A stretch of DNA of 61,418 nt, taken from contig LJUQ01000012.1 in the NCBI GenBank assembly GCA_001304505.1, positions 1-61,418 of the forward strand, in the 5' to 3' direction. Below the pieces are notes generated by a model that ran no database searches, was not told the DNA's origin, and saw only the letters and a list, made by a program, of their open reading frames with translations. This document shows, piece after piece, positions 7,953-41,750 of this stretch (within the stretch, counting starts at the first letter, position 1; the number at the start of each line of letters is the position of its first letter). The DNA comes from Bacteroides sp. SM23_62_1 (GTDB lineage: Bacteria; Bacteroidota; Bacteroidia; Bacteroidales; SM23-62). A program made the position numbers and the translations under genes.

Positions 7953-7987
7953 TTGTTTTGCAATCCCGGAAAATTTTTTGAATGGGG

Positions 7988-8096
7988 TACAGCTTCGCTA
8001 ATGATCCAGTCATTTATAGTGACTGGATCCTAACAGAAAAACTTCATAACCGGATACAGCTTCGCCAATGATCCAGTCACTTTAAATGACTGGATC
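7988..8096. repeat. Two 42-bp direct repeats, each carrying a 10-bp perfect hairpin
   Basis: Copies at 7988-8029 and 8055-8096 share TACAGCTTCGC(T/C)AATGATCC. Each ends in a perfect inverted repeat, GATCCAGTCA / TGACTGGATC, with 7-nt loops (8003-8029 and 8070-8096). The period is 67 bp. The pair lies between convergent genes (glycosyltransferase ending 7952, PAP2 ending 8196). Neither hairpin is followed by a clear T-run, so a simple intrinsic terminator is not obvious; a REP-like repeat or bidirectional 3'-end structure are alternatives. Confidence 0.8.
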
Positions 8097-8195
8097 ACTA
8101 AAATAACTCCCCAAACATTAATGTCAAAAAAAAGAAAATATCGGTCGTTTTGATATAAAATTTTTACTTCAGCAAGCCATGTCTAATGTGGATTA

Positions 8196-27042: not shown

Positions 27043-29229
27043 CTATTCATCAACAAAAAATAAATCTAACTGTCTTTTTGCCAGGTTGGCACGCGCAATT
27101 TCCACTTTAATCTGATCACCGAGCTGAAATTTCCTGCCTGTCCGCTTTCCGGTAATACAATAGTTATCCTCATCATAATCATAGAAATCGTCAAATAGGT
27201 CCCTGAGAGAAATCATCCCTTCACATTTACAGTGAACAAGCTCAACATACAAGCCCCATTCAGTCACACCAGAAATAACACCATCATAAATCTCTCCAAT
27301 TTTATCAGCCAGAAATTCAACCTGTTTATACTTAATTGATGCCCATTCAGCTTCCATGGCCTTCCTTTCCATTTCTGAAGAATGCTTGCATCGTTCTTCA
27401 TATTTTTTCTGACTTTTGGAATCCCCGTTTTGCAGATAATGATCCAGCAGTCTGTGAACCATTAAATCAGGATATCTCCGGATAGGGGATGTAAAATGCG
27501 TGTAGTATTGAAAAGCCAGGCCATAGTGGCCGATATTCATGGTGGAATATTCTGCTTTTGCCATGGTTCTAATCGCGAGACTTTCAATGATGTTTTGTTC
27601 ACTTTTCCCTTTTACATCTTCCACAAGTTTATTAATTGAACCGGCTATCTTTTTTTTACTCCCCATATTCAGGCTGTATCCAAAACGTTTGATAAACCAT
27701 GCAAAAGATTCAATTTTTTCCTGGTTTGGTTTATCATGTATCCTGTATACAAAAGTCTTTCCGATAGTCTTTGCAGGTGGTGCAAAATCATTATCCTCCA
27801 ATTGTTTAAGTTTCTTTGGTTTGCCAATCAATTCAGCCACCTTTTTATTGGCAAGTAGCATAAATTCTTCAATCAGCTGATTGGATGCTTTATTCTCTCT
27901 CCAGAAAACACTTAGAGGATATCCCTCATGGTCAATCTCAAATTTAACCTCAACCCTTTCGAAGGAAAACGAACCATTTCTGAATCGTTCAGCTCTTAAT
28001 TTTTGTGCTATTTCATGAAGTTCAAGAATTTCATCCTTCATATCACCTTCTTTCCACTCAATAATCTCCTGTACCTCATCATAATTAAAGCGGCGGTCTG
28101 AACATATAATTGTCCGTCCAAACCATTCATTTAGCACTTCGGCATTATTATTCATTTCAAAAACGGCGGAGTAACACAATTTTTCTTCCTGTGGCTTGAG
28201 GGAACAGATATTATTTGAAAGACGCTCCGGCAACATGGGTATAACCCTGTCAACAAGATATATAGAAGTTCCTCGTTCATAGGCTTCCTGATCAATGATG
28301 GATTTTTCACCAATATAATGTGACACATCAGCAATATGAACACCGACCTCACTGTTGCCGTTCTCAAGGTGTGTGATTGACAATGCATCATCAAAATCTT
28401 TTGCATCTGCCGGATCAATTGTAAAAGTTGGTACATCCCTGAAATCCCTCCGCTTGGCATAGTCATGCTCTGTTATACGGTCACTGATCAACTCCGCAGC
28501 ATGGTTAACCTCTTCAGGGAATTTCCATGGTAACTCAAATTCAGCAAGAATAGCATGCATTTCAACTTCATGCTGTCCCGGTTCACCAAGTACCTCGATA
28601 ATCTCCCCTGCAGGATTTTTAGTACCTTTTGGCCATCCTGTTATAACTGCAATAGCTTTATCCCCGTCTTTTGCCCCTTTTAATCTGTCGAGAGGAATAT
28701 ACAGGTCATAAGGCATCTGTTTTGTGCCGGAATTCAGAAATGCAAAATTGCCGGACACCTCAACAATCCCAACAAATGTTTTCTTCGCACGTTCAATAAT
28801 TTCAATAACCTCACCTTCCAACCGTTTGCCCTTCTTCCTGGCAAACAGATATACCTTAACATAATCTCCATCAAGTGCCTGGTTCAGATTATTCCGTGAA
28901 ACAAACACATCCTCCCCGCTCTCATCAGACTGGATATAAGCATAACCAAATTGCGTCATGTCAACTGTACCGAAAATATATCCGCCTCTGGATCTAAGCT
29001 TATATTTACCTGGAAATATCTCCATCAAATCATTGCGGTTTTTTAAAAACTCCAGAACTTCAATGATTTTTCGTTTTGTAACTGTATCAGTGATCTCAAG
29101 ACGTTTAGCTATTTGTTTATAGTTAAAGGTCTGTGTGGGATTATTTGTAAAAAGCCCAGTCATAGCACTGGTCAGCGCTTCACGGTGAAAAGGTCTGCCT
29201 GTTTTTTTCTTTTTTCCTTTCCTTGCCAT
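27043..29229 (-). CDS. rnr: Ribonuclease R
   Basis: 728 residues. A basic N-terminus and winged-helix domain (about 15-80), cold-shock domains (from about 85: GYIFGTVDMTQFGYAYI), the RNB catalytic domain with the Asp cluster DPADAKDFDDALS (about residue 270), and a C-terminal S1 domain (GVISGVTEWGLYVEL). Known: processive 3'-5' exoribonuclease for structured RNA decay. Typical length. It is transcribed divergently from cysS, with fold-back repeat A in its immediate 5' region. Confidence 0.95.
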   Translation of the reverse strand: MARKGKKKKTGRPFHREALTSAMTGLFTNNPTQTFNYKQIAKRLEITDTVTKRKIIEVLEFLKNRNDLMEIFPGKYKLRSRGGYIFGTVDMTQFGYAYIQSDESGEDVFVSRNNLNQALDGDYVKVYLFARKKGKRLEGEVIEIIERAKKTFVGIVEVSGNFAFLNSGTKQMPYDLYIPLDRLKGAKDGDKAIAVITGWPKGTKNPAGEIIEVLGEPGQHEVEMHAILAEFELPWKFPEEVNHAAELISDRITEHDYAKRRDFRDVPTFTIDPADAKDFDDALSITHLENGNSEVGVHIADVSHYIGEKSIIDQEAYERGTSIYLVDRVIPMLPERLSNNICSLKPQEEKLCYSAVFEMNNNAEVLNEWFGRTIICSDRRFNYDEVQEIIEWKEGDMKDEILELHEIAQKLRAERFRNGSFSFERVEVKFEIDHEGYPLSVFWRENKASNQLIEEFMLLANKKVAELIGKPKKLKQLEDNDFAPPAKTIGKTFVYRIHDKPNQEKIESFAWFIKRFGYSLNMGSKKKIAGSINKLVEDVKGKSEQNIIESLAIRTMAKAEYSTMNIGHYGLAFQYYTHFTSPIRRYPDLMVHRLLDHYLQNGDSKSQKKYEERCKHSSEMERKAMEAEWASIKYKQVEFLADKIGEIYDGVISGVTEWGLYVELVHCKCEGMISLRDLFDDFYDYDEDNYCITGKRTGRKFQLGDQIKVEIARANLAKRQLDLFFVDE

Positions 29230-29243
29230 TTATGAGTATGATA

Positions 29244-29328
29244 AAGGTCACGGAGAATCACAGAGATGAGGCAGAACCACAGATAAATTCTCTGTAGAAC
29301 TCAATATACTCTTTGATTCTCTGTGCCC
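29244..29328. repeat. Fold-back element A (GGTCAC...CACAGAG family)
   Basis: Left arm GGTCACGGAGAATCACAGAG...AACCACAGA faces right arm TCTCTGTAGAAC...TGATTCTCTGTG, with a short central loop. Outer arms match at 13 of 15 positions (GGTCACGGAGAATCA against GGGCACAGAGAATCA). It begins 15 nt upstream of the rnr start, in the rnr/cysS divergent region. Same family as copies at 30879, 33612, 40831 and the arms at 34832/35260. Confidence 0.75.
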
Positions 29329-29410
29329 AAATTATATTTATAAACAAAGGTAATTATTACTAATTTTACATATCAATAATAGCCATGGTTTCCTGACTGA
29401 TTTTTTTATT

Positions 29411-30880
29411 ATGGACCATATACTTTACTTATATAACACACTATCACATACAAAGGAGAAATTCGAACCGTTTCATCCCCCGCTGGTTGGGCTATATGTC
29501 TGCGGGCCCACGGTATACGGGGATCCCCATCTCGGTCATGCCCGCCCGGCAATAACTTTCGACCTGTTATACCGCTATCTCACGCACCTGGGTTTTAAGG
29601 TCCGTTATGTAAGAAACATCACAGATGTGGGTCATCTGGAACAGGATCTGGATGAAGGGGAAGACAAGATTGCCAGACAGGCCAGGATTGAAAAGATGGA
29701 ACCAATGGAAGTGGTTCAGTATTATATGAACCGCTACCACGATACAATGCGGAAATTGAATGTTCTCCCTCCAAATATTGAACCCCTTGCATCCGGACAT
29801 ATTATTGAACAGCAGGAACTGGTTAAGAAATTAATTGATAACGGATATGCATACGAAAGTAATGGTTCGGTTTATTTTGATGTGGAGAAATATAACAATA
29901 AAAATCATTATGGTAAACTTTCAGGCAGAAAAACTGAAGATTTACTGGCTGCTTCCCGCGAACTTGAAAAACAATCAGATAAGAGGAATCCATTAGATTT
30001 TGCTCTATGGAAGAAAGCTGAACCGCAACATATTATGCGCTGGCCTTCCCCCTGGAGCGATGGCTTCCCCGGCTGGCATGTTGAGTGTTCGGTAATGAGC
30101 CAGAAATACCTGGGTAACAGATTTGATATCCATGGTGGTGGTATGGACCTCCTGTTTCCTCATCATGAATGTGAAATAGCACAGACAGTTGCCAGCCAGG
30201 GAACGGAATCAGTTAAATACTGGATGCATAATAATATGGTAACCCTGAATGGAAAGAAAATGGGTAAATCACTCGGTAATTCCATAACCCTGGAGGAATT
30301 TATTACGGGACATCACAAACTCCTCAGTAATGCATATAGTCCAATGACAATCAGGTTCTTTATGCTTCAGGCCCATTACAGGAGTACGCTGGATTTTTCC
30401 AATGAGGCATTGCAGGCTGCAGCAAAAGGGCTTGACAGGTTGATGGAAGGATTTAAAAATATTGATAAGATTATCCCGGCTAAAAAATCCACTATCAATC
30501 CGGACCGCATTAAAAAGGAGCTATATGATGCTATGAATGATGATCTGAACAGTCCTATAGCCATATCACATCTTTTTGATGGTATCAGGGATATTAATTC
30601 AGTTGTCTCAGGAAATGAGAGCCTTAACTCATCGGATCTGGTGAAGATAAAAAAAATCTATCATACCTTCATATTCGATATCCTTGGACTTCAGGAGGAA
30701 AAGGATGATGCAAAAGGAAAAGGCCTGCTTTCCGACCTGATAAATCTCCTGCTCATGATACGTATTGATGCCAGGAAAAGAAAAGATTTTGAAACTGCCG
30801 ACCGGATCAGGGATGAATTATCCAGATTGGGAGTGGAAGTCCGGGATGTGAAAGATGGTTATGAGTGGAAGATAAATTAG
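29411..30880 (+). CDS. cysS: Cysteine--tRNA ligase
   Basis: 489 residues. Class I motifs: [16 protein letters not shown] (HLGH replaces HIGH) and KMGKSLGN (KMSKS). Zinc ligands are visible as YVCGPT, VECSVMS and HHECE. Known: attaches Cys to tRNA-Cys. The TAG stop (30878-30880) overlaps the first two bases of fold-back element B, which fills the space up to ispG. Confidence 0.97.
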
Positions 30881-30957
30881 GTCACAGAGTAATACAGAGA
30901 AATATTGAGAACCACAGAGTAATTTCTCTGTGGTTCTTATTTATACCCTGTGATCCT
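30879..30957. repeat. Fold-back element B between cysS and ispG
   Basis: Left arm AGGTCACAGAGTAATACAGAG...; perfect inner stem GAACCACAGAG (30909-30919) with CTCTGTGGTTC (30926-30936), 6-nt loop; right end CCCTGTGATCCT. It contains the last bases of the cysS stop and the GTG proposed as the ispG start (30950). A compact gene-less version of the element at 34832-35302. Confidence 0.85.
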
Positions 30958-32749
30958 GTATAAACCAATATATTACAAGCATAAATTGTACAAATCCCAA
31001 AAAATAAAAATAGGCCCTACCAGTATTGGAGGAGATGCCCCCATCCGTGTCCAGTCAATGACCACTACCAGTATACTGGATACAGAGAAAACTATAGACC
31101 AGTGTATTAGAATAATCAACGCAGGTGCTGATTTTGTCAGGCTCAGCGTCCGAAGTATGAAGGAAGCTGAAAATCTAAGGATCATTCAAAATAAACTCAG
31201 AGATAAAGGAATAAATAATTCATTGATTGCAGATGTTCATTTTAATCCCAAAATAGCAGTTGCTGCAGCAAATATTGTTGATAAGGTAAGGATAAATCCC
31301 GGAAATTTTGCTGATGACAGTATCAGGGAAAAGCTTATTCCTTTGCTTAATTGTTGCAGACAGAGCGGAACTGCTATCAGGATTGGAGTCAACCATGGAT
31401 CACTGTCAAACCATATATTGAATAAATACGGCGCTACACCGGAGGGAATGATTGAATCCGCCATGGAATATCTCAGGATCTGCATGGAGGAAAATTTTTT
31501 TAACCTGGTGGTATCACTCAAATCAAGCAATACCAGGATAATGATTCACGCTAACAGGCTCCTGGTAAAGAGGATGATGGAAGAAAACATGAATTTCCCC
31601 CTGCACCTTGGTGTAACCGAATCAGGTGAAGGAGAGGATGGAAGGATCCGCTCTGCCGCAGGAATAGGGACATTGCTTGCTGAAGGAATAGGCGATACAA
31701 TAAGGCTGTCACTTACGGAAGATCCGGAAAATGAAATAGCAGCTGCCCTGAAACTTTTACATAATGGAAAAGGCAGGTTGAAAATAATCACTGATAAACC
31801 TGCCTGGAATGAGTATCATTATTCAAAACGAAAAACAAATGAAATATTGGATATTGGTGGAAGGAATGTGCCTGTTGTTGTATCTTCCATTCCTGTTATA
31901 AAAGGAACAAAACTAGATGATGATGCAATCATTGCTGACTTTCTCTATTCATCAAATCCTGATTTTCATTTAGTACATGAAAAATCTTCCTTCATTACGG
32001 ATGCTCCAGGCTGGCAAAGCCATGGATCTGAATTTAATAAACTCTATCCCTCCTTTAACCGGGAGGAATTCATGAAAACATCTTATAGATCTGAATCACT
32101 CAATTTTATCCAAATCCATCCGGAAGAAATCAATAATCACCTGCTAGATAATCTTACAGAATTTAGTAATATCGTATTCATATTATTATGTCAACCTGGT
32201 AAACGAAATAAATTAATCCGGGCATTCAATCTACTTTACCAGTCCGGTTTGCCTGTCCCTGTTATATTAAAATCAGAATATCCCTGTAGTGATAAAGAAC
32301 TTTATATCCTGAAAGCTGCCTCAGACCTTGGTATGTTTTTTACCGACGGCCTGGCAAATGGATTATGGCTTGAAAATCCAAATTTTCCCTCCGGCGAAAA
32401 TGTGAACCTTACATTCCAGATCTTACAGGCAACAAGGGCCAGGATGTTCAAAACTGAATACATTGCCTGCCCGTCGTGTGGGCGGACCTTATTTAACATA
32501 CAGGATACACTTGCCAGGGTTAAAAATTCCACTCATCATCTTAAACACCTTACAATTGCCGTGATGGGATGTATCGTTAATGGGCCGGGGGAAATGGCTG
32601 ATGCTGACTACGGATTTGTTGGCAGTGGCCCGGAAAAGATAACTTTATATAAGGATAAACAACCTATAAAGAAAAATATCCCTGCACAGTATGCCGTTGA
32701 GGAATTGATTAATTTAATTAAAGAATGTGGTGATTGGATTGAAAAATAA
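30950..32749 (+). CDS. ispG: 4-hydroxy-3-methylbut-2-enyl-diphosphate synthase (long form)
   Basis: 599 residues. GTG start at 30950 gives the expected N-terminus (YKPIYYKHKLYKS...) leading to GGDAPIRVQSMTTT. The TIM barrel is followed by an inserted domain (about 280-500) typical of Bacteroidota, Chlamydiae and plant IspG. The 4Fe-4S cluster Cys residues lie in CPSCGRTLF and GCIVNGPGEMADADYG. Known: seventh MEP-pathway step, reducing MEcPP to HMBPP for isoprenoids. The start codon lies within fold-back element B, so the repeat forms its 5' leader. Confidence 0.95.
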   Translation: MILYKPIYYKHKLYKSQKIKIGPTSIGGDAPIRVQSMTTTSILDTEKTIDQCIRIINAGADFVRLSVRSMKEAENLRIIQNKLRDKGINNSLIADVHFNPKIAVAAANIVDKVRINPGNFADDSIREKLIPLLNCCRQSGTAIRIGVNHGSLSNHILNKYGATPEGMIESAMEYLRICMEENFFNLVVSLKSSNTRIMIHANRLLVKRMMEENMNFPLHLGVTESGEGEDGRIRSAAGIGTLLAEGIGDTIRLSLTEDPENEIAAALKLLHNGKGRLKIITDKPAWNEYHYSKRKTNEILDIGGRNVPVVVSSIPVIKGTKLDDDAIIADFLYSSNPDFHLVHEKSSFITDAPGWQSHGSEFNKLYPSFNREEFMKTSYRSESLNFIQIHPEEINNHLLDNLTEFSNIVFILLCQPGKRNKLIRAFNLLYQSGLPVPVILKSEYPCSDKELYILKAASDLGMFFTDGLANGLWLENPNFPSGENVNLTFQILQATRARMFKTEYIACPSCGRTLFNIQDTLARVKNSTHHLKHLTIAVMGCIVNGPGEMADADYGFVGSGPEKITLYKDKQPIKKNIPAQYAVEELINLIKECGDWIEK

Positions 32750-32902
32750 GAGTTATCAAAGGTTTTGTATTTTTTCTAATTTAAATATCCTGAATAAACA
32801 TATATTTATTGCCGATTTCACCGATTATAAAGCAGATTCCGCCGGTCATAAATAACCGGGATTTTAAATATCCGCGAAATCTGCGTTAATATCTGAGGTA
32901 AT

Positions 32903-32938
32903 CCCTGCCTGCGTGCCGAAGCACTTCGGCAGGCAGGG
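32903..32938. repeat. GC-rich palindrome CCCTGCCTG...CAGGCAGGG
   Basis: Arms CCCTGCCTG and CAGGCAGGG with an inner CCGAAG/CTTCGG stem. It lies in the 240-nt gap between ispG and the HAD gene. Similar cores occur at 5881-5938, 20961-20996 and 52137-52159. Could be a dispersed repeat or transcript end; no T-run follows. Confidence 0.65.
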
Positions 32939-32989
32939 GCGAGAAGCCTTATATATCAAATATTAATATATTAATTCGTTGTTTTAATT

Positions 32990-33631
32990 ATGATCGATCT
33001 GAAAAACATTAAAAACATCATCCTTGACCTGGGAAGGGTTATTCTTGAAATCCACCTTGAAAAAACCATCATTGCATTTAAAGAATTTGGCATCCCTCAG
33101 ATTGATGATCTTGATATCGTATTTGCCAGGTATCCTTTTTTTTACCATTTTGAAATAGGAACAATCCGTCCTGAACAGTTTATATCCGAAATCCGGAAAG
33201 CTTCCGGAAATAATATACCGGATCATGTTATTGCTGATGCCTGGAATGCGATGATCGGGGGATTCATCGATGGATCGATTGATACAATCATGAAGTTAAA
33301 ATTAAAATACCGGGTGTTCCTGCTCAGTAATACCAATGCAATGCATGAAATAGTATACAATAACCATCTGAAAAAGGATCATGGTATTGCAAATCTTTCA
33401 GAATTATTTGAAAAAGTATATTATTCCCACACCCTTCATATGAGTAAACCCGATATCAAAATATTTGAATATGTTTTGAAAGACAGTAATCTTGTTCCGG
33501 AAGAAACCTTATTTGTTGATGATCTCCTGATTCATATTGAAAATGCAGCTAAACTTGGAATACAAACATATCAACTTGTGCCTCCACTACAGATAAAGGA
33601 TATATTCTTTCAGGTCACAGAGAACCTATGA
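32990..33631 (+). CDS. HAD-superfamily phosphatase (YihX-like)
   Basis: 213 residues. HAD motif I IILDLGRVILEI, motif II FLLSNTNAMH, motif III Lys in MSKPDIKIFEYVL, motif IV LFVDDLLIHIE. The DxGRV form of motif I fits the HAD-IA haloacid/alpha-glucose-1-phosphatase-like group. Known: Mg2+-dependent hydrolysis of sugar phosphates or related phosphomonoesters. Its last codons (QVTENL then TGA) are supplied by the left arm of fold-back element C. mtnA follows about 80 nt later; a role in methionine salvage is possible but unsupported. Confidence 0.88.
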   Translation: MIDLKNIKNIILDLGRVILEIHLEKTIIAFKEFGIPQIDDLDIVFARYPFFYHFEIGTIRPEQFISEIRKASGNNIPDHVIADAWNAMIGGFIDGSIDTIMKLKLKYRVFLLSNTNAMHEIVYNNHLKKDHGIANLSELFEKVYYSHTLHMSKPDIKIFEYVLKDSNLVPEETLFVDDLLIHIENAAKLGIQTYQLVPPLQIKDIFFQVTENL

Positions 33632-33698
33632 GACAAAATAGATCCACAGAGTTTTTTCTTTGTGGTTATTATAAAATCTCTGATGCCCTCTGTGCGCT
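33612..33698. repeat. Fold-back element C overlapping the HAD gene 3' end
   Basis: Left arm AGGTCACAGAGAACC..., inner stem CCACAGAG with CTTTGTGG, right arm CTCTG...CCCTCTGTGCGC. The left arm encodes the HAD C-terminus in the frame GTC ACA GAG (V-T-E). mtnA starts 16 nt after the right end. Confidence 0.75.
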
Positions 33699-33713
33699 GA
33701 ATTATTATGTTTT

Positions 33714-34820
33714 ATGTTAATTAACGGAAAAGCATATCAGGCAATCTGGCTTGATGAGACAGACCAAAAAACTGTCAGATTCATCAATCAGAATGAACTC
33801 CCTTTCCGGTTTGTCATTGACGAACTTCATACTGCACAGGATGCATTGAATGCTATCCGGGAAATGAAAGTAAGAGGCGCACCACTAATCGGTGTAACCG
33901 CAGCATTTGGTATTTATCTTGCAACCCTCGAAGCAGTAAAAAATAAAGATCCCTTACAAAATATTTTCTCCTTCGCTGAAAAACTGCGTAACGTCCGGCC
34001 AACAGCTGTTAATCTTGACTTTGCAGTAAATCGTCTGACCGAGACTATCAGATCTTTTACAAATCCCGAAAAATTACCCGAAGCAACATTGAAGGCCACT
34101 TTAAATATCCTGAATGATGAAACAGAATCATGCCGGCAGATAGGGCTTCATGGATTCACTGTTTTAGATACGATATATAAAGAAAAATCCAAAAAAACCG
34201 TGAATATATTAACTCATTGCAATGCAGGATGGCTTGCCTGTATTGATTATGGAACCGCCACAGCCCCTATATATATGGCATACGATCATGGTATCCCCGT
34301 CCATGTGTGGGTTGATGAAACCCGCCCAAGGAACCAGGGAAGCCGGCTAACTGCCTGGGAACTTTTACAGCATGGTGTTCCCCATACTGTGATTGTCGAT
34401 AATGCAGGAGGTCATCTTATGCAACATGGGTTGGTTGACCTGGTAATCGTAGGAAGTGATCGCACAACCCGTTCAGGTGATGTGGCCAATAAAATCGGAA
34501 CCTATCTGAAAGCACTGGCAGCAAAAGATAATCATGTGCCCTTTTATGTCGCCCTCCCATCATCCTCAATAGATTTTTCGATTCGGAATGGCTTCCGTGA
34601 AATTCCTATCGAACAAAGAGATCCGGATGAGGTCAGATATATAGAAGGTCTTGACCAATCCGAAAGAAAGAAGGTATTGACCATGGATCCTGCCAGCCCT
34701 GTTTCCAATTATGGTTTTGACGTAACCCCTGCCAGGCTCATATCTGGATTAATTACTGAAAGAGGAATATGCGAAGCTTCTGAAAAAGGCCTGGCCGAAC
34801 TGTTTCAGGAAAAATTCTAG
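33714..34820 (+). CDS. mtnA: S-methyl-5-thioribose-1-phosphate isomerase
   Basis: 368 residues. Motifs REMKVRGAPLIGVTAAFG (substrate-binding), LTHCNAGWLACIDYGTA (catalytic Cys) and VGSDRTTRSGDVANKIGTY (catalytic Asp). Known: converts MTR-1-P to MTRu-1-P in methionine salvage, recycling the 5'-methylthioadenosine left over from SAM-dependent reactions. Length is typical. The related archaeal ribose-1,5-bisphosphate isomerase is less likely given full MtnA motifs. Other salvage genes are not adjacent. Confidence 0.93.
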   Translation: MLINGKAYQAIWLDETDQKTVRFINQNELPFRFVIDELHTAQDALNAIREMKVRGAPLIGVTAAFGIYLATLEAVKNKDPLQNIFSFAEKLRNVRPTAVNLDFAVNRLTETIRSFTNPEKLPEATLKATLNILNDETESCRQIGLHGFTVLDTIYKEKSKKTVNILTHCNAGWLACIDYGTATAPIYMAYDHGIPVHVWVDETRPRNQGSRLTAWELLQHGVPHTVIVDNAGGHLMQHGLVDLVIVGSDRTTRSGDVANKIGTYLKALAAKDNHVPFYVALPSSSIDFSIRNGFREIPIEQRDPDEVRYIEGLDQSERKKVLTMDPASPVSNYGFDVTPARLISGLITERGICEASEKGLAELFQEKF

Positions 34821-34831
34821 AAATTATTTTC

Positions 34832-35302
34832 AAGGTCACAGAGGCTCACAGAGAATAAAGAGTGCCACAGAGATTAGTTTATGATCCTTTTAAGGCCATC
34901 TTTTAATCGAAGTACGTTAATATTAATTAATAATCCTAATTTGTAATTTCCTAACTTTAAGTAAGTTATGACTTGTGCTGTATGAATAATATTTATTGCT
35001 TCAACTGCTTTTAACTCGACAACCACTTTATCCTCAACCAACCAATCTATTCTGTAGCCATAATTAATAATAACTTCTTCATATTCAAGTGGTAAGATGA
35101 CTTTCTTCCTGACAAACAAACCACTTTTTGTTAAATCATAATATAAGCATTCCTTATAGGCATTTTCAAGCATACCAGGTCCAAATCTTTTATGTACCTT
35201 GATAGCACAATTGATAATTTTGCCAGTAATTATATTTAGTTCCATATTCTTTTCATTTTGACTCTGTGGTTCTCAGATTTCTCTGTGATACTCCGTGACC
35301 TC
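34832..35302. mobile_element. Candidate terminal-inverted-repeat element carrying a GxxExxY gene
   Basis: Arms of about 40 bp at 34832-34872 (AAGGTCACAGAGGCTCACAG...) and 35260-35302 (reverse complement of AGGTCACGGAGTATCACAG...) align along most of their length: GGTCAC(A/G)GAG..TCACAGAGAA, then GAG..CCACAGAG. They enclose one gene at 34874-35245 and little else; its stop codon abuts the left arm. Four gene-less versions of the same arms occur at 29244, 30879, 33612 and 40831. Seen: shared arms. Inferred: a small element or repeat/nuclease unit. No clear target-site duplication was found. Confidence 0.55.
34874..35245 (-). CDS. GxxExxY protein, PD-(D/E)XK nuclease-like
   Basis: 123 residues, full length for the family. 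The defining motif is GMLENAY (G24, E27, Y30), preceded by INCAIKVHKRFGP. A PD-(D/E)XK-like core follows: D67 in YRIDWLVED and E77-L-K79 in VVVELKAVE (D-X9-E-X-K), then TAQVITYLKLGNYKLGLLINI. Known: the GxxExxY family is placed in the PD-(D/E)XK nuclease superfamily and its role is not established. It is flanked by inverted copies of the GGTCACAGAG arms that recur nearby without a gene. Inferred: a nuclease acting on, or mobilised with, these repeats. On the opposite strand to its neighbours. Confidence 0.85.
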   Translation of the reverse strand: MELNIITGKIINCAIKVHKRFGPGMLENAYKECLYYDLTKSGLFVRKKVILPLEYEEVIINYGYRIDWLVEDKVVVELKAVEAINIIHTAQVITYLKLGNYKLGLLININVLRLKDGLKRIIN

Positions 35303-35382
35303 TATATCTTTATCCCAAAAACTATGAATTATCGGTATCCTTTGTCTTTATTTTTGATTAACTTTTAAAACTTATTGATCGT

Positions 35383-36126
35383 ATGAAAATAGCTATCATT
35401 TCAGATATCCATTCAGACATCCGGAGCCTTGAAAAAGCATTGAAAATGATAAGAAAAACAGGCTTTGACCAGCTTGTTTGCCTGGGTGATATTGCCGGAT
35501 ATAGCCACCATTATCATAAAGATCTGGATGGCAGGGATTCCAATGGTTGTATCGAGATGGTTGAAGAAACATGTAACATTACCATAGCAGGTAACCACGA
35601 CCATTATTGGTCCGGGAAGCTCCCGGTTTACCTGAAGAAAAAAATATATCCAGATAACTGGTTTGAGCTTGACCTGTCAGAACAAATAAAAATCTCACGT
35701 AATACCATCTGGCTTTATCATGACGAAATAAAGGATACCATCAATGATGATCACATACAGTTTCTCGCATCCCTTCCTGAAACACATATTTTTCCCGTTG
35801 AGAATTTCACTATCCTTTTCTCTCATTTTCTCTATCCGGATCTTACCGGGGCCACAAAATTTTTCCCTTCAAAAATCGGTCATTTCAGGCCTCATTTAAA
35901 ATACATGAAGCAGCAAAAAAGTCTGTATGGAATTATGGGGCATGGCCACCTGCAGGGATATTCCATTACCTCCAGGAAGCAATTCAGATATAATTATTTT
36001 GGTAAAACAGGGCTGGATTTAATCCCGCAGATCATAATAGGCCCGGCGATTACCAGGGGAGATAGCAAAAATGGCTTTATGATTCTGAATACTTCAATAC
36101 CGGAGCTGGAGGTTATTCAAATATAA
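35383..36126 (+). CDS. Calcineurin-like metallophosphoesterase
   Basis: 247 residues. Metal-binding motifs in order: SDIHSDIRS (D-x-H), CLGDIAGY (GD), AGNHDHYW (GNHD) and MGHGHLQGY (GHxH). Known: dinuclear-metal phosphoesterases of the YfcE/DNA-repair-like group hydrolyse phosphodiesters or phosphomonoesters; the substrate is unknown. No signal peptide, so cytoplasmic. Separated by 89 nt from the sensor gene downstream, which has its own -7 box. Confidence 0.88.
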   Translation: MKIAIISDIHSDIRSLEKALKMIRKTGFDQLVCLGDIAGYSHHYHKDLDGRDSNGCIEMVEETCNITIAGNHDHYWSGKLPVYLKKKIYPDNWFELDLSEQIKISRNTIWLYHDEIKDTINDDHIQFLASLPETHIFPVENFTILFSHFLYPDLTGATKFFPSKIGHFRPHLKYMKQQKSLYGIMGHGHLQGYSITSRKQFRYNYFGKTGLDLIPQIIIGPAITRGDSKNGFMILNTSIPELEVIQI

Positions 36127-36183
36127 CAATATTCAAGGATTCACTTTTAGCCACCCTTAGATAAAAATACAGAACAATTAAAT

Positions 36184-36191
36184 TAACTTTG
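36184..36191 (+). promoter_or_regulatory. Bacteroidota -7 promoter box for the sensor-GT operon
   Basis: TAACTTTG (TAnnTTTG) is 24 nt before the ATG at 36216; -33 element not clear. It would drive the sensor/nucleotidyltransferase gene and possibly the membrane GT gene that starts 1 nt after it. Confidence 0.4.
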
Positions 36192-36215
36192 TATTCCTAA
36201 ATACCCGTTAATAAA

Positions 36216-38744
36216 ATGGATGAATCCGGGTTTCGGTTCAGATATATAATCAGTTATATTCTTCCTGCATTCCTGACAATTGCGCTATTTATTTTCATAT
36301 TCTTCTTAGTTATTATTCCCTGGTTCGAATCCTGCTTGTTTGACCGTAAGCGTGAAATGATCCGTGAACTGACCTATTCAACAATCAGTATCATCGATAA
36401 TCTGAATAAGGAAACATCCACTGATTCTCTTTCTGCTGTTGAGGCCCGGAAGCAGGCCATAGATGTTATCCGGAATATGCGATATGGTGAAGAACTGAAA
36501 GATTATTTCTGGATCACAGATACAGTACCTGTAATGATCCTTCATCCCTACAGGAATGATTTGGAGGGTAAAAGGCTGGACGATTATAAAGATCCTAAGG
36601 GTAAAGCTTTATTCATAGAATTTGTAAAGGTTACAAAAGAAAAGGGTGAGGGATATGTAGATTATATGTGGCAATGGAAAGATGACTCCACCTTGATTGT
36701 TCCTAAATTATCATTTGTGAAATTATATGAACCATGGGGATGGATTATAGGAACTGGCATATATATTGAAGATGTAAAGCAGGAAATTTACAGGAGGAAA
36801 ATCCACCTTGCCATGATATCAGGTGGTATCATCCTGGTTATAACCATATTACTATCATTTATTATCAGACAAAGCCTTAAATCAGAAAGAATCAGAGAAC
36901 AGGCTGAAGAAGAACTCGAACTTTCAAAAGAGAAATACCAGGCTCTCATCGACACGTCTCCTGAAGGGACCATCATGTATATTGATGGCAGGTTTGTTTA
37001 TTCCAATATCATTTTCCTGGCCATGACAGGATACACACAACATGAGATATCACAGTTAAATTTCAGGGATATTTTCTACATCAAAACTGATCCTGATTTT
37101 TCAATTGCCAAACTTCGTAAAATATTAAATGAATCAGGTAAAACAATGAATTTCGAGGCACAGGCCAGGAATAAGGATGGAAAGTACCGGGATGTGATTG
37201 TGATGGCATCTGCTATCACTTACCTCGATAAAGAAGGCATTATTTTTATTACCAAGGATATCAGCCGGAGACAAAAATATGGGATTGAAAAAGAAACACT
37301 GACCGATGAATTACAATCATCACTTCTTTTGATGAATTTACCGGTAACATCTTTCATGAAAGAACATATAAAATGTAATATGAACCAGAGTATCTATGAT
37401 GCTGCGATACTCATGAACCGTAAAAACCAGGATGCTATCCTGGTTACCAAGGATGACAGGAATTACATTGGCATTATTACCGATTCTGATCTCCGGAACC
37501 GTGTGGTAGCAGGTGAATATCCGTTCACTAACCCGGTATATGAAATCATGAGCTCTCCTCTCATTACAATACCCGACCAGGCTTTATTGTACGAAGCCAT
37601 CCTTCTTGTTGAAGAAAAAAAGATCTCTCATCTTGCTGTTTCAGGTAAATCGGGTGATATCGTTGGTATCTTCAGTAACGAAGATCTTATCGAAGTTCAG
37701 AGAAATTCCATTTCATACCTGATTAAAGAAATTAAAAATGTAAGAACAGTCGAAAATCTTAAAAATATACATCAAAAAGTGCCGGGACTAGTAAAGATCC
37801 TCCTTGATAGCGGTGCCCGGATACAGAATATTACTCACCTGATCAGCACCATAACAGATGCTATTACAGAACGTGTTATTGAATTTGCCGTGGAAGAAAT
37901 GGGAGCGCCCCCTGTCAGATTTGCATTCCTCGTACTTGGCAGTGAGGGACGCAGGGAACAAACTATGGTCACGGATCAGGATAATGCCATCATCTATGAG
38001 GATGTTTCCTATGATAAAATATCAGAAATAAATAAGTACTTCCTTTACTTTGGACAAAAAATTAACCTCTGGCTCGACAGAATAGGATATAATTACTGTA
38101 GAGGTGATATCATGGCCGGTAATCCACAATGGTGCCAGCCTGTTTCAAAATGGAAGGATTATTTTTCCAACTGGATTCAGAACGAGACACGGGATAGTTC
38201 TCTTGGTATATCTATCTTCTTTGACTTTCGTACCGTCTACGGTGATCATCAATTCGCCGAACAACTCCGTTCCCATATCGATAAGATCTCCTACGACAAG
38301 CCGGACTTCTACCAGAGAATGGCACAGGATACCCTGAAATATAAACTGCCTCTGAATATATTTAAATCCGCTTCGGTTGATTCGCCAGGAGCTAAACCAG
38401 AAACGATGGACCTCAAAACAGGAATTATGCCTGTGACTGACTTTGCACGCATATACTCACTTTATCACCGGATAATAGAAACAAATACAATTCTGCGTAT
38501 TGAAAAAATATTCCAAAAAGGTGAGATTAATAAATCAGAATATGATGAAATCACACATGCCTATGATTTCCTTATGGGCCTCCGCTTTAAAATACAATTG
38601 GCTTCTATCCTGAATAATGAGATCCCTAAAAATATAATTTCCTCACAGGATCTGACGGAAATAGAGCGAAGTATGACTCGCAATATTTTTTCCAGAATTT
38701 CCGGTTTCCAGACCAAACTGACTAATGATCTGAAATGGAGCTGA
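36216..38744 (+). CDS. Membrane Cache-PAS-CBS-DUF294 nucleotidyltransferase signalling protein
   Basis: 842 residues. Order: TM1 (about 12-35), an extracytoplasmic single Cache domain (about 40-195, with YFWITDTVPVMILHPY and WGWIIGTGIYIEDV), TM2 (about 197-217), a coiled linker, a PAS domain (about 235-350), two CBS motifs (about 370-490), then a GlnD/DUF294-type nucleotidyltransferase with LGSEGRREQTMVTDQDNA (about 573-592; the TDQDNA acidic pair is intact) and a helical DUF294 C-domain. Known: DUF294 proteins usually pair CBS with a cyclic-nucleotide-binding domain and are cytoplasmic; here the input is a membrane Cache-PAS module. Inferred: senses a small ligand outside and transfers a nucleotide to an unknown target. 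The GT39-like gene starts 1 nt after its stop. Confidence 0.85.
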   Translation: MDESGFRFRYIISYILPAFLTIALFIFIFFLVIIPWFESCLFDRKREMIRELTYSTISIIDNLNKETSTDSLSAVEARKQAIDVIRNMRYGEELKDYFWITDTVPVMILHPYRNDLEGKRLDDYKDPKGKALFIEFVKVTKEKGEGYVDYMWQWKDDSTLIVPKLSFVKLYEPWGWIIGTGIYIEDVKQEIYRRKIHLAMISGGIILVITILLSFIIRQSLKSERIREQAEEELELSKEKYQALIDTSPEGTIMYIDGRFVYSNIIFLAMTGYTQHEISQLNFRDIFYIKTDPDFSIAKLRKILNESGKTMNFEAQARNKDGKYRDVIVMASAITYLDKEGIIFITKDISRRQKYGIEKETLTDELQSSLLLMNLPVTSFMKEHIKCNMNQSIYDAAILMNRKNQDAILVTKDDRNYIGIITDSDLRNRVVAGEYPFTNPVYEIMSSPLITIPDQALLYEAILLVEEKKISHLAVSGKSGDIVGIFSNEDLIEVQRNSISYLIKEIKNVRTVENLKNIHQKVPGLVKILLDSGARIQNITHLISTITDAITERVIEFAVEEMGAPPVRFAFLVLGSEGRREQTMVTDQDNAIIYEDVSYDKISEINKYFLYFGQKINLWLDRIGYNYCRGDIMAGNPQWCQPVSKWKDYFSNWIQNETRDSSLGISIFFDFRTVYGDHQFAEQLRSHIDKISYDKPDFYQRMAQDTLKYKLPLNIFKSASVDSPGAKPETMDLKTGIMPVTDFARIYSLYHRIIETNTILRIEKIFQKGEINKSEYDEITHAYDFLMGLRFKIQLASILNNEIPKNIISSQDLTEIERSMTRNIFSRISGFQTKLTNDLKWS

Positions 38745-38745
38745 T

Positions 38746-40860
38746 ATGCCAGATCAAAAAGCGACATCCACCCGATTTAAACTTATTGGCACAGTAATTT
38801 TTATTTTTACTCTTTTTATCATCGCCTGGTATTTTAATTACCCTGAGATCCTGCTTAAAAAACCTCAGTCTATTCACTTCCCCAGGCAGGCAGATTGTGC
38901 GTCATTAGCCCTGAATTATTACCAGAGTGATATGGATTTTTTTCATCCCGAAATCCACAACCTGACCTCCGATGATGGGACCAGTGGTAAATGTGCACCC
39001 AGCGAATTGCCGTTCCTGTATTACCTGGTGGCAATACTTTATAAAATGTTTGGGTATCATGACTTTATTTACAGAATCATCAATACCCTGATTTTCTTCC
39101 TCGGACTATTTTACTTTTTCAGGCTTCTGTATGTATTGCTGAATGATATATTCTGGTCGGTATCACTGCCTCTCATCCTGCTTTCATCACCCGTAATAGC
39201 CTATTATGCTAATAATTACCTGACAAATACCTCTGCACTGGCTTTTGTTATTATGGCATGGTTTTATTTTATCAATTATTATATTCATGGACAACATAAA
39301 AATCTTTATCTCAGCGCATTATTCTTTTTCCTTGCCGGTGCATTTAAAATAACCGGGCTTTTCAGCCTGCTATCCCTTGCGATAATATTTACTCTGGAAG
39401 GATTGAATATTATCCGTTGCCATCAGGATGGCAGAAGGATTTTTGGTAATGGTTTAAAACGGATTATCCCTTATATCCCTGGTGTCATTATTATCTTTTT
39501 ATGGATAGTTTATGCGCACCGGTATAATCAAATCCATGACTGTTATTACTTCTCAACAAGGTCATTCCCCATCTGGGATATGAATACGGAAGCTACAAGA
39601 AATGTCATCAAGGCTGTGGTTAAAATCTGGTTCACTCAGTATTTCAGTATTTGGATATATTTCTTCCTTATCATATTGTTTATTTATATGCTGGTTAACC
39701 GTCTTTCCGCTCATCCTCTCCTGTTCTATACCATTATGTTTCTTATTCCAATTGTCCTGCTTTATGTTCTGATGCAATTTTTTATGTTGAAGGATCACGA
39801 TTATTATACAATCAACATCTATATTCTGCCAATATTCATAATTATCTCTTCATTCAGCCTTATGAAGCAAAAACATTACAGACTCTTTAAATCCCTCATT
39901 TTAAAATCCCTGTTTTTTTGCTTTGTCATTTATCATCTCTGGTATGCTAAATCCAAACTGGATGAAAGATATAACAATAAAGAAAACATTTATTACATGC
40001 TTCATGATTACTATGAAATCACACCTTTTCTGGAACAGAATGGGATCCTGCTGAAGGATACAGTTATTTCCATCTCAGGTGAAACGCAGCTTCCTCTTTA
40101 CCTGATGAACCGTAAAGGATGGATTGAACACATTGAAACACAATTTGGTGAAGGAGAAAAAATCCTTTATAACAGGGATAGTACCGGTATTCAACACTCC
40201 ATAGATAAGGGGGCTAAATACATGATTGTCAGGGACCTGGAAGAACTTATCGTGAAACCATATCTTCAGAGCTATGCTACAAACCTCGTGGGCCGTTTTA
40301 ATAAGATCCATATTTTCGATCTGGTAAATAAAAATCCCAATTTTACAATCCCTGAAAGAAAGATCCTGCAGTCTATACTGTGCGATGCCGAGCAGGTTAC
40401 AAATGACAGCAAGGACTACCTTTCCTTCTCTGATTCCCTTTTATTTGAATTTGGAATAACACAGAGTGACGAAACATCATGGTCAGGAAAGTATTCTGCC
40501 AAACTTAATCCTTCACATCCCTTTGGCATGACAATAACTCTCCCACAGGTTAAGACAGGTGAGAGCTTTGCAATAGAAGTTAAATATTCCGGTGTCCCTG
40601 AAAAGGGATTGATTATTGCCTCTGCATTAACGTCTGACGTATTCTATTATAATGAAAATACGATAATTCCGGATACGGTGCCGGGCTGGTATAATATTTC
40701 TGCAGAATTCTTTGTTCCCGGGGAAATGGATGGTAAAGAAATGAAAATATATCTCTGGTATACAGGCAATGATTCTGCTTATTTTGATGATTTTAAAATA
40801 ACCAGATATAGTTCATATTCATTTGTAAATAAGGTCACAGAGGGCCACAGAGATAAATGA
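38746..40860 (+). CDS. GT39-like membrane glycosyltransferase
   Basis: 704 residues with about ten membrane segments in the first 410 residues and a soluble C-terminal part. The N-terminal loop (ALNYYQSDMDFFHPEIHN) resembles the acidic acceptor loop of the GT-C (PMT/ArnT) fold, and SELPFLYYLVAILYKMFG is typical of this class. Known: GT39-type enzymes move sugars from polyprenyl-phosphate donors to lipids or proteins on the periplasmic side. It starts 1 nt after the sensor gene. The last ten codons (NKVTEGHRDK, TGA at 40858) come from fold-back element F, so the natural C-terminus has been replaced or extended. Confidence 0.78.
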   Translation: MPDQKATSTRFKLIGTVIFIFTLFIIAWYFNYPEILLKKPQSIHFPRQADCASLALNYYQSDMDFFHPEIHNLTSDDGTSGKCAPSELPFLYYLVAILYKMFGYHDFIYRIINTLIFFLGLFYFFRLLYVLLNDIFWSVSLPLILLSSPVIAYYANNYLTNTSALAFVIMAWFYFINYYIHGQHKNLYLSALFFFLAGAFKITGLFSLLSLAIIFTLEGLNIIRCHQDGRRIFGNGLKRIIPYIPGVIIIFLWIVYAHRYNQIHDCYYFSTRSFPIWDMNTEATRNVIKAVVKIWFTQYFSIWIYFFLIILFIYMLVNRLSAHPLLFYTIMFLIPIVLLYVLMQFFMLKDHDYYTINIYILPIFIIISSFSLMKQKHYRLFKSLILKSLFFCFVIYHLWYAKSKLDERYNNKENIYYMLHDYYEITPFLEQNGILLKDTVISISGETQLPLYLMNRKGWIEHIETQFGEGEKILYNRDSTGIQHSIDKGAKYMIVRDLEELIVKPYLQSYATNLVGRFNKIHIFDLVNKNPNFTIPERKILQSILCDAEQVTNDSKDYLSFSDSLLFEFGITQSDETSWSGKYSAKLNPSHPFGMTITLPQVKTGESFAIEVKYSGVPEKGLIIASALTSDVFYYNENTIIPDTVPGWYNISAEFFVPGEMDGKEMKIYLWYTGNDSAYFDDFKITRYSSYSFVNKVTEGHRDK

Positions 40861-40920
40861 GATACACAGGGAATGCATCTCTGTGGTTCTCTTAAACACA
40901 CAGTGGCTCTCTGGGACCTT
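40831..40920. repeat. Fold-back element F overlapping the GT39 gene 3' end
   Basis: AAGGTCACAGAGGGCCACAGAG at the left faces CTCTGTGGTTCTC...GGGACCTT at the right; the outer ends AAGGTC/GACCTT are perfectly inverted. The left arm encodes the C-terminal residues of the membrane GT in the frame GTC ACA GAG (V-T-E), as in element C. Confidence 0.8.
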
Positions 40921-41018
40921 TTTTATAAATAACATCAGGATAACAATCAAAATAATTCAGTTTTTAGTACCTTAACACCCTTATTCATTTATCATTAAGA
41001 ATATTATAAGAGTGGGAA

Positions 41019-41750
41019 ATGACTTCCAGTATTAAAACACTTTCAATTATTATCCCGGCATATAATGAGGAATCAACCATCGGGACGGTTCTGGATAAAG
41101 TTGTTCAGGTTGATCTTGATAATATCAAAAAGGAGATCATTGTTGTTAACGATCATTCCTCCGATCATACAATGGAAATTGTGCAGAAGTATATAGACAA
41201 AAACCCGGATGTCGCAATCAAGCTTGTGAACCATGATAAAAACCTTGGAAAGGGTGCTTCTTTACATTCGGGTTTTAACCAGGCCACGGGCGATTGCATA
41301 ATCATCCAGGATGCTGATTTTGAATATGATCCACGCGAATATATGATTTTACTGGGTCCAATCATAGAAGGTCATGCTGATGTTGTCTATGGATCACGAT
41401 TTATGGGATCCAATCCTCACAGGATATTATTCTTCTGGCATACGATAGGAAACCGTTTCCTGACATTCCTGTCAAATATATTCACCAACCTGAATCTGAC
41501 CGATATGGAAACAGGATTCAAATGTTTCCGGAAGGAGATTATTAAAAGTATAAATCTCAAGGAAAAAAGATTTGGTTTTGAACCGGAAGTCACGGCAAAA
41601 ATATCCAGGATCCCCGGCATCAGGATCTATGAGGTCGGGATATCGTATTACGGGCGAAGGTATGAAGAAGGGAAAAAAATCAAGTGGAAAGATGGATTCC
41701 GTGCCCTTCTCTGCATTGTAAAATATAATCTCTTCAGAAAAAGAATCTGA
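41019..41750 (+). CDS. GT2 family glycosyltransferase (polyprenyl-phosphate sugar synthase-like)
   Basis: 243 residues, GT-A fold: SIIIPAYNEESTIGTVLDK, VVNDHSSDHT, GKGASLHSGFNQATGD and the DXD-type IQDADFEYDPREY. C-terminal ETGFKCFRKEII and EPEVTAKISR match the DPM1-like/undecaprenyl-phosphate mannose or glucose synthase group. No membrane segments. Known: charges a polyprenyl phosphate with a hexose that GT39-type enzymes then use as donor, fitting the GT39-like proteins encoded on both sides. Confidence 0.9.
   Translation: MTSSIKTLSIIIPAYNEESTIGTVLDKVVQVDLDNIKKEIIVVNDHSSDHTMEIVQKYIDKNPDVAIKLVNHDKNLGKGASLHSGFNQATGDCIIIQDADFEYDPREYMILLGPIIEGHADVVYGSRFMGSNPHRILFFWHTIGNRFLTFLSNIFTNLNLTDMETGFKCFRKEIIKSINLKEKRFGFEPEVTAKISRIPGIRIYEVGISYYGRRYEEGKKIKWKDGFRALLCIVKYNLFRKRI

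Follow-up and report, generated by a model that had tools for sequence, protein, structure and literature searches.

RAYT genes are small DNA-acting genes that lie between inverted copies of their own repeat type, and the REP and REPIN sequences are intergenic, dispersed as inverted doublets and of a type specific to a RAYT subclass, according to two reports (PMC6006769, PMC3116915). Rpn/YhgA-like proteins (PF04754) are described as PD-(D/E)XK nucleases with a connection to gene acquisition; they reportedly have little or no sequence specificity, and the abstract makes no mention of partner repeats (PMC5350276). GxxExxY is a frequent annotation whose role is not settled, and it is scarcely named in the full-text literature searched.

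Here we analyzed a stretch of 61,418 nucleotides from Bacteroides sp. SM23_62_1, referred to as the window, in which a GxxExxY gene is located between inverted arms (Table 1), together with GxxExxY genes of related genomes. The arrangement resembles a REPtron: inverted repeats of its own type lie on both sides of the gene, further copies are scattered over the genome and occur as inverted doublets, and the type of the repeated unit is tied to the protein clade. The comparison with the logic of REP/RAYT pairs, drawn in a preliminary description of the window, was apt. GxxExxY is of the PD-(D/E)XK type, whereas RAYT is of the HUH/Y1 type; furthermore, GxxExxY arms consist of 7-8 nt units in series with non-pairing spacers, whereas REP is a GTAG-footed hairpin. 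The locus is not a REPtron as a family because enzyme fold and repeat structure both differ. An insertion sequence with its MITEs shares with it a gene in terminal inverted repeats, gene-less copies and the occurrence of both states at one site, where 3 of 11 fold-backs have the unit of the gene and 8 have another; it differs in that the locus shows neither a DDE transposase nor a target-site duplication, that the unit diversifies, and that the fold-backs within the window's genome are not near-identical. Like Rpn, GxxExxY is a PD-(D/E)XK protein, but it belongs to another Pfam family and is accompanied by repeat arms. The locus is likely a nuclease-repeat cassette that works on the same principle as a REPtron or an IS with its MITEs, with a different enzyme fold. 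A nuclease-repeat arrangement was not found described in the titles and abstract openings of the literature covered, with most subscription papers lying outside it.

The window protein matched TIGR04256 GxxExxY with an E value of 7e-38 (129.5 bits, cut-off 35) and PF13366 PDDEXK_3 with 128.2 bits (cut-off 22), in agreement with the PD-(D/E)XK-type core that had been ascribed to GxxExxY proteins. Its active-site pattern reads E27...D67...E77-x-K79, and the catalytic pattern was retained in 176 of 180 GxxExxY proteins; the motif columns were occupied by G24 in 180, E27 in 178 and Y30 in 179 of the 180. Structural modelling of the GxxExxY protein predicted a restriction-nuclease-like fold that contains the core fold of Cas4-type nucleases. 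The protein is predicted to be a minimal Cas4-like PD-(D/E)XK nuclease. Cas4 carries a four-cysteine iron-sulphur cluster. The window protein differs from Cas4 and RecB-like proteins in having only 123 aa and two cysteines, hence it is without such a cluster, and no cas genes were noticed on reading the list of open reading frames of the window. Profile matches to the window protein were restricted to PD-(D/E)XK families, with none to HUH/Y1, DDE or other known transposases. A PDB sequence search returned only T7 endonuclease I, at E values of 0.27 and 0.49, which was not relied on. The window's genome (4.74 Mb, 305 contigs, 92% complete) harbors a single intact GxxExxY gene, that of the window, which is of the CACAGAG type. 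Additionally, one broken copy was observed (L028, G000:C191:3567-3913) that is interrupted by a stop; by reading, the inverted pair around it is another one, of the CACGAATT type.

Table 1. Features of the GxxExxY locus and of the gene-less fold-backs in the window
Feature	Position	Strand	Remarks
GxxExxY gene (TIGR04256 / PF13366 PDDEXK_3)	34874-35245	minus	123 aa; complete; profile match
Arm beside the 3' end of the gene	34833-34872	+	CACAGAG at 34837, 34847 and 34866; degenerate AAAGAG near 34857
Inverted arm beside the 5' end of the gene	35262-35301	minus	CTCTGTG at 35262 and 35281; CTCCGTG at 35291
Gene-less fold-back	29244-29328		between divergent ORFs 27043-29229 (-) and 29411-30880 (+)
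Gene-less fold-back	30879-30957		abuts the stop codon of ORF 29411-30880; precedes ORF 30950-32749
Gene-less fold-back	33612-33698		covers the last 20 nt of ORF 32990-33631
Gene-less fold-back	40831-40920		covers the last 30 nt of ORF 38746-40860

The arms of the window gene comprise 40 nt each, are 78% complementary and enclose 389 nt. The flanks of the gene scored 22, as compared to a 95th percentile of 17 in mismatched flank pairs. The position of a complete GxxExxY gene between inverted arms of about 40 nt was confirmed. In each arm, units of 7-8 nt follow one another at a pitch of 8-12 nt, and this row is inverted across the gene; the unit word is CACAGAG in the window and CGCAAAG, CACGAAT or CACATAG elsewhere. 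Units were counted over the 110 nt of flank nearest to the gene in 181 elements, 104 from relatives and 77 from named loci. CRCNRAK units were found 616 times reading toward the gene and 269 times in the opposite sense, as compared to 37 in shuffled flanks. Among the unit-to-unit distances of up to 30 nt, 259 of 353 amounted to 8-12 nt, and a smaller peak was found near 19-21 nt. With a prevailing spacing of 8-12 nt, neighbouring units may lie on roughly one side of the helix.

A search with TIGR04256 gave matches in 49 of 99 relatives. Leaving out partial and weak rows, 105 nearly full-length genes were obtained, 104 of them with both flanks, from 41 genomes. The 300 nt upstream of each gene were locally aligned with the reverse complement of the 300 nt downstream, and a score of at least 16 was reached by 73 of 104 GxxExxY genes, as compared to 35 of 513 mismatched pairs, 6 of 104 shuffled flanks and 18 of 146 neighbouring open reading frames. 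ParE genes of the same relatives served as control and remained flat (3/29 versus 11/274 mismatched pairs); an artefact common to small accessory genes was therefore rejected. Small GIY-YIG genes scored in 8 of 16 cases versus 6 of 150, with repeats that are not rows of units and in several cases are plain palindromes. In a second set, drawn from named genomes as the best 80 of 583 confirmed matches, 60 of 77 loci had inverted flanks; mismatched pairs of this set also scored (105/455) because it was drawn with one clade that has units in common. The idea that arms bound every GxxExxY gene held for these 73 of 104 and 60 of 77 genes and failed for the 31 of 104 below the threshold of 16, several of which still show units. 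Inverted-arm flanks are a family rule for GxxExxY genes. According to the records, members outside the Bacteroidota come from Treponema, a Planctomycetota bacterium, Tolypothrix, Methylobacter and a Methanosarcinales archaeon; as the sequences are contigs of MAGs, they may be contaminants. Two loci recorded as Rhizobium (L213) and Sphingobacterium (L247) are probably misassigned, both having the flavobacterial hemW site.

Similarity between related elements of different families stops at the arms. Cross-family alignments extended over 515 bp with 83.5% identity (L144/L150), 516 bp with 77.5% (L108/L110) and about 490 bp with 74-76% (L045, L047, L111); a pair within one genome (L157/L158) aligned over 481 bp with 90.9%. 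Among the pairs listed, similarity ran past the arms in few, notably L113/L114, L112/L113, L052/L092 and L041/L089, and several flavobacterial loci have their whole neighbourhood in common. These alignments show gene plus arms as a discrete cassette of about 0.5 kb that is common to different families. Direct repeats of at least 5 nt, as expected of a target-site duplication, were found in 4 of 112 elements as compared to 5.6% of mismatched pairs, the element ends having been set by alignment and possibly being a few nucleotides off.

Ordering the genes by protein clustering brought out, by reading, blocks of unit words: CGCAAAG; CACAGAG/CACAGTG/CACAAAG; CACATAG/ACATTAG; CACTGAT/CGCTGAT; CAGAATT/ATGATT types; and CACGAATT/CACTAATT/CACAAAT. 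In cross-genome pairs, arms matched in 6% at a protein identity below 40%, in 11% at 40-50%, 27% at 50-60%, 47% at 60-70% and 81% at 70-80%, and in 8 of 8 pairs above 80%. A Mantel test on cross-genome pairs gave 0 of 2000 permutations reaching the observed trend below 70% identity and 6 of 2000 below 50%. Within single genomes the trend was weak below 70% identity (101/2000) and absent below 50% (751/2000). On a tree of 180 protein sequences, of which 108 were labelled by counting units and 72 were not assignable, five unit classes required 15 changes as compared to 51.4 +/- 2.3 after shuffling; for the relatives alone (55 labelled), 11 changes were required as compared to 29.0 +/- 1.8. As judged from these sequence comparisons, the unit class was shown to track the protein clade. 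Since the word changes with the protein lineage, GxxExxY likely recognizes its own arms. Our preferred reading is that GxxExxY gene and arms recur as one half-kb cassette whose product, a predicted Cas4-like nuclease, rather probably binds its own arm unit.

Four unit patterns were counted in the 99 relatives, with a cell defined as one unit in one genome and a threshold of at least 8 matches, to which the arms of the genes themselves contribute few. The threshold was reached in 11 of 21 cells with an intact gene of matching unit, in 21 of 143 cells with genes of other classes only, and in 8 of 232 cells for which the fetched genes included no intact one. The stratified odds ratio between matching-unit and other-class cells was 6.2 (p 4e-4); singly, one of the four units was significant at this threshold. 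A copy number that depends on the presence of the gene, a check suggested in the preliminary description, was supported by 11/21 versus 21/143 and contradicted by the 8 of 232 gene-less cells rich in arms; as a simple function of gene presence, arm abundance holds only partly.

One genome (G021) contained many arms though no GxxExxY match exceeded the cut-off. Among the copies fetched, 3 of 3 in G052, 2 of 5 in G021, 1 of 7 in G041 and 1 of 5 in G071 were bounded on either side by exact terminal repeats of a different kind, and most of the remaining ones had such a repeat at one end. Near-identical copies were considered as the result of cassette amplification and rejected as such, being at least partly located inside elements with other terminal repeats. 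The high-copy near-identical repeats resemble MITEs that have acquired a fold-back, and in L279-L298 (G041, G021, G071, G052), where terminal repeats such as GGCATGTTTCATTTATTAG, GGCTACC, GTTACGAAATAA and TTAGTGTCTGTC were observed, MITE-like carriers seem to have amplified the fold-backs. Tandem arrays of CACAGAG/CACGGAG fold-backs with a spacing of about 82 nt were noted at G053:C90 (L165). In G068, which has no GxxExxY match, fold-backs lie within a longer repeat and often near contig ends.

Such carriers, and fold-backs present without a matching gene, are in favor of the reading that the arms are ends for another, unlinked recombinase and GxxExxY is a captured passenger, comparable to MITE cargo. 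An unrelated family provides a further argument for it. At L201:800-1330 we observed a gene read as 23S rRNA IVP (four-helix bundle, PF05635) with iterated inverted repeats, and PF05635 matches were found in 66 of the 99 relatives. A score of at least 16 was obtained for 21 of 30 IVP genes (29 from relatives plus L201; loci L299-L328) as compared to 10 of 285 mismatched pairs. One IVP gene (L300) sits between CACAAAG/CACAGAG arms and no GxxExxY-like open reading frame was found in the 30 IVP loci, L300 included; hence, such arms need not belong to GxxExxY. The IVP arms broaden the phenomenon and weaken the case that the nuclease is required. However, the arms of IVP genes consist mostly of other words, e.g., AGTGTTCAG, GGCACTA and AGAAGTTT, and as a set their flanks are poor in CRCNRAK units (0.3 versus 3.4 per 2x160 nt). 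Moreover, a passenger should not predict the sequence of the arms, yet the unit class follows the protein tree. We consider capture as a passenger unlikely, and keep to a cassette whose protein binds its own arm unit.

Additionally, the site between hemW and a downstream cyclase gene was analyzed. A search of the phylum (395 genomes) and seven named loci yielded 34 loci that could be parsed for hemW and cyclase, and 3 that could not. Ten of the 34 contained a GxxExxY gene with CGCAAAG arms, 11 a fold-back (two of them partial), 7 a bare spacer of 11-41 bp, with three of the seven in other genera of the family, and 6 something else. Gene-less fold-backs do therefore occur where relatives carry the gene, which is in favor of the preliminary description. 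At L256, a small gene reading as GIY-YIG nuclease was observed at this site together with a short palindrome. The left arm of the fold-back L255 differed in 1 of 34 positions from that of the gene-bearing L213. The unit of the gene itself was found in 3 of 11 fold-backs; the other 8 have other units (CACTAAG, GCCGCAAAG, GCCACGAAG, CGCTGAT) and thus are not simple deletion remnants of the resident gene, but need replacement, re-insertion or change in place. In a HemW-cyclase tree, gene and fold-back loci were interleaved, with many nodes of low support. The ten GxxExxY proteins of the site fall within a clade of eleven (support 0.89), the eleventh being from Niabella; gene loss is therefore the simpler reading where the unit was kept (3/11).

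The left arm at the hemW site was 70% identical among the ten gene loci, as compared to 39% for fourfold sites of hemW and 37% for the next 34 nt, and still 62% identical without an 8-nt anchor. This conservation could reflect constraint or gene conversion. Strong conservation at an orthologous site suits a bound protein, as do units with a pitch of one turn beside gene start and stop; both would also be expected if the arms were operators by which GxxExxY represses its own gene, with fold-backs as relics or decoys and no DNA being cut. However, the catalytic pattern kept in nearly all GxxExxY proteins, the position of arms at both ends of the gene and the genome-wide dispersal of gene-less copies speak against operators, and we regard this possibility as improbable, preferring a nuclease that binds and acts on its arms.

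All four gene-less fold-backs reported earlier for the window were present (Table 1). They were said to consist of the same arms as the gene: the CACAGAG unit is indeed common to them, but the whole arm is not. The fold-backs near 29244, 33612 and 40831 were 69-79% identical to the left arm of the window gene; the one at 30879 is outside this repeat family. Those at 33612 and 40831 overlap the 3' ends of open reading frames and thereby supply the codons for the C-terminal residues of the proteins upstream. In the whole genome, the strict arm pattern GGTCACRGAGN{0,6}CACRGAG gave 24 matches, two of which are the arms of the window gene and three sites of which were counted twice, as compared to 0 for the reversed pattern; with a relaxed pattern both arms were recognized at 12 sites. 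Furthermore, 78 CACRGAG and 40 CGCWAAG matches were found in this genome, which has no intact CGCWAAG-type gene. Two tandem copies of 61 nt with 79% identity were observed in the window at 7969-8100, parts of which (GATCCAGTCA...TGACTGGATC) are strong inverted repeats.

Inter-unit nucleotides were compared between the two arms of one fold-back for 13 arm pairs from 12 sites of the window's genome, one site being used in two registers, and were 27% identical versus 35% after permutation. These non-pairing spacers ruled out a perfect hairpin as the conserved feature of the fold-backs in this genome; what is conserved is a motif, not a pairing stem. The fold-backs are palindromes as inverted sets of motifs, not as pairing hairpins. 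That they are transcription terminators or mRNA-stabilizing hairpins to which GxxExxY is incidental is very improbable: two of the four window fold-backs overlap an ORF 3' end, a third abuts a stop codon and the predicted RNA folding of -30 to -47 kcal/mol would suit such a function, but the spacers pair no better than permuted ones, no Rfam family was found at gathering threshold in 28900-41200, and both the arms of GxxExxY genes and the clade-dependent unit are left unexplained.

To our knowledge, no defence system described so far includes gene-less repeats dispersed over the genome. A PADLOC scan of five proteins gave weak Cas4 matches for two only (E 0.006 and 0.009), and the window protein had no match in a phage collection; PHROGs likewise gave nothing informative beyond weak matches. 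With these observations against it, a defence or toxin role like that of Rpn, with the repeats labelling self DNA or controlling a toxic nuclease, is hardly credible, in spite of the PD-(D/E)XK fold, the patchy distribution (49 of 99 relatives) and the reports in which Rpn proteins are such nucleases (PMC5350276) and are described as toxin-antitoxin systems (PMC10327210).

For the preferred reading, a nuclease that binds the units of its own arms, the following mechanism is conceivable. Several copies of GxxExxY would bind side by side to the iterated units of each arm, and the bound proteins would pair the two arms. The nuclease would then cut or process the DNA at the arms, which would allow the cassette or fold-back to be copied, moved or lost. 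Deletion of the gene between the arms would leave a fold-back.

Tentatively, and with somewhat less confidence than for binding of the unit itself, GxxExxY cassettes may represent a new class of minimal selfish element, in which a stand-alone Cas4-like nuclease reads a word repeated once per turn in its own inverted arms, moves between distant bacteria as a half-kb unit and seeds gene-less fold-backs; word and protein would have co-diversified into many specificities, and IVP, with iterated inverted arms mostly of other words, would form a second branch. A definite DNA partner would make GxxExxY a testable protein-DNA code with many natural pairs of protein and word, for which related genomes offer one site in three states: with the gene, with a fold-back or bare. 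If true, this reading would add an enzyme fold to the partnerships known from REPtrons and from IS with MITEs, and would account for intergenic repeats such as CACAGAG, CGCAAAG and CACGAAT, a class observed here in many Bacteroidota genomes.
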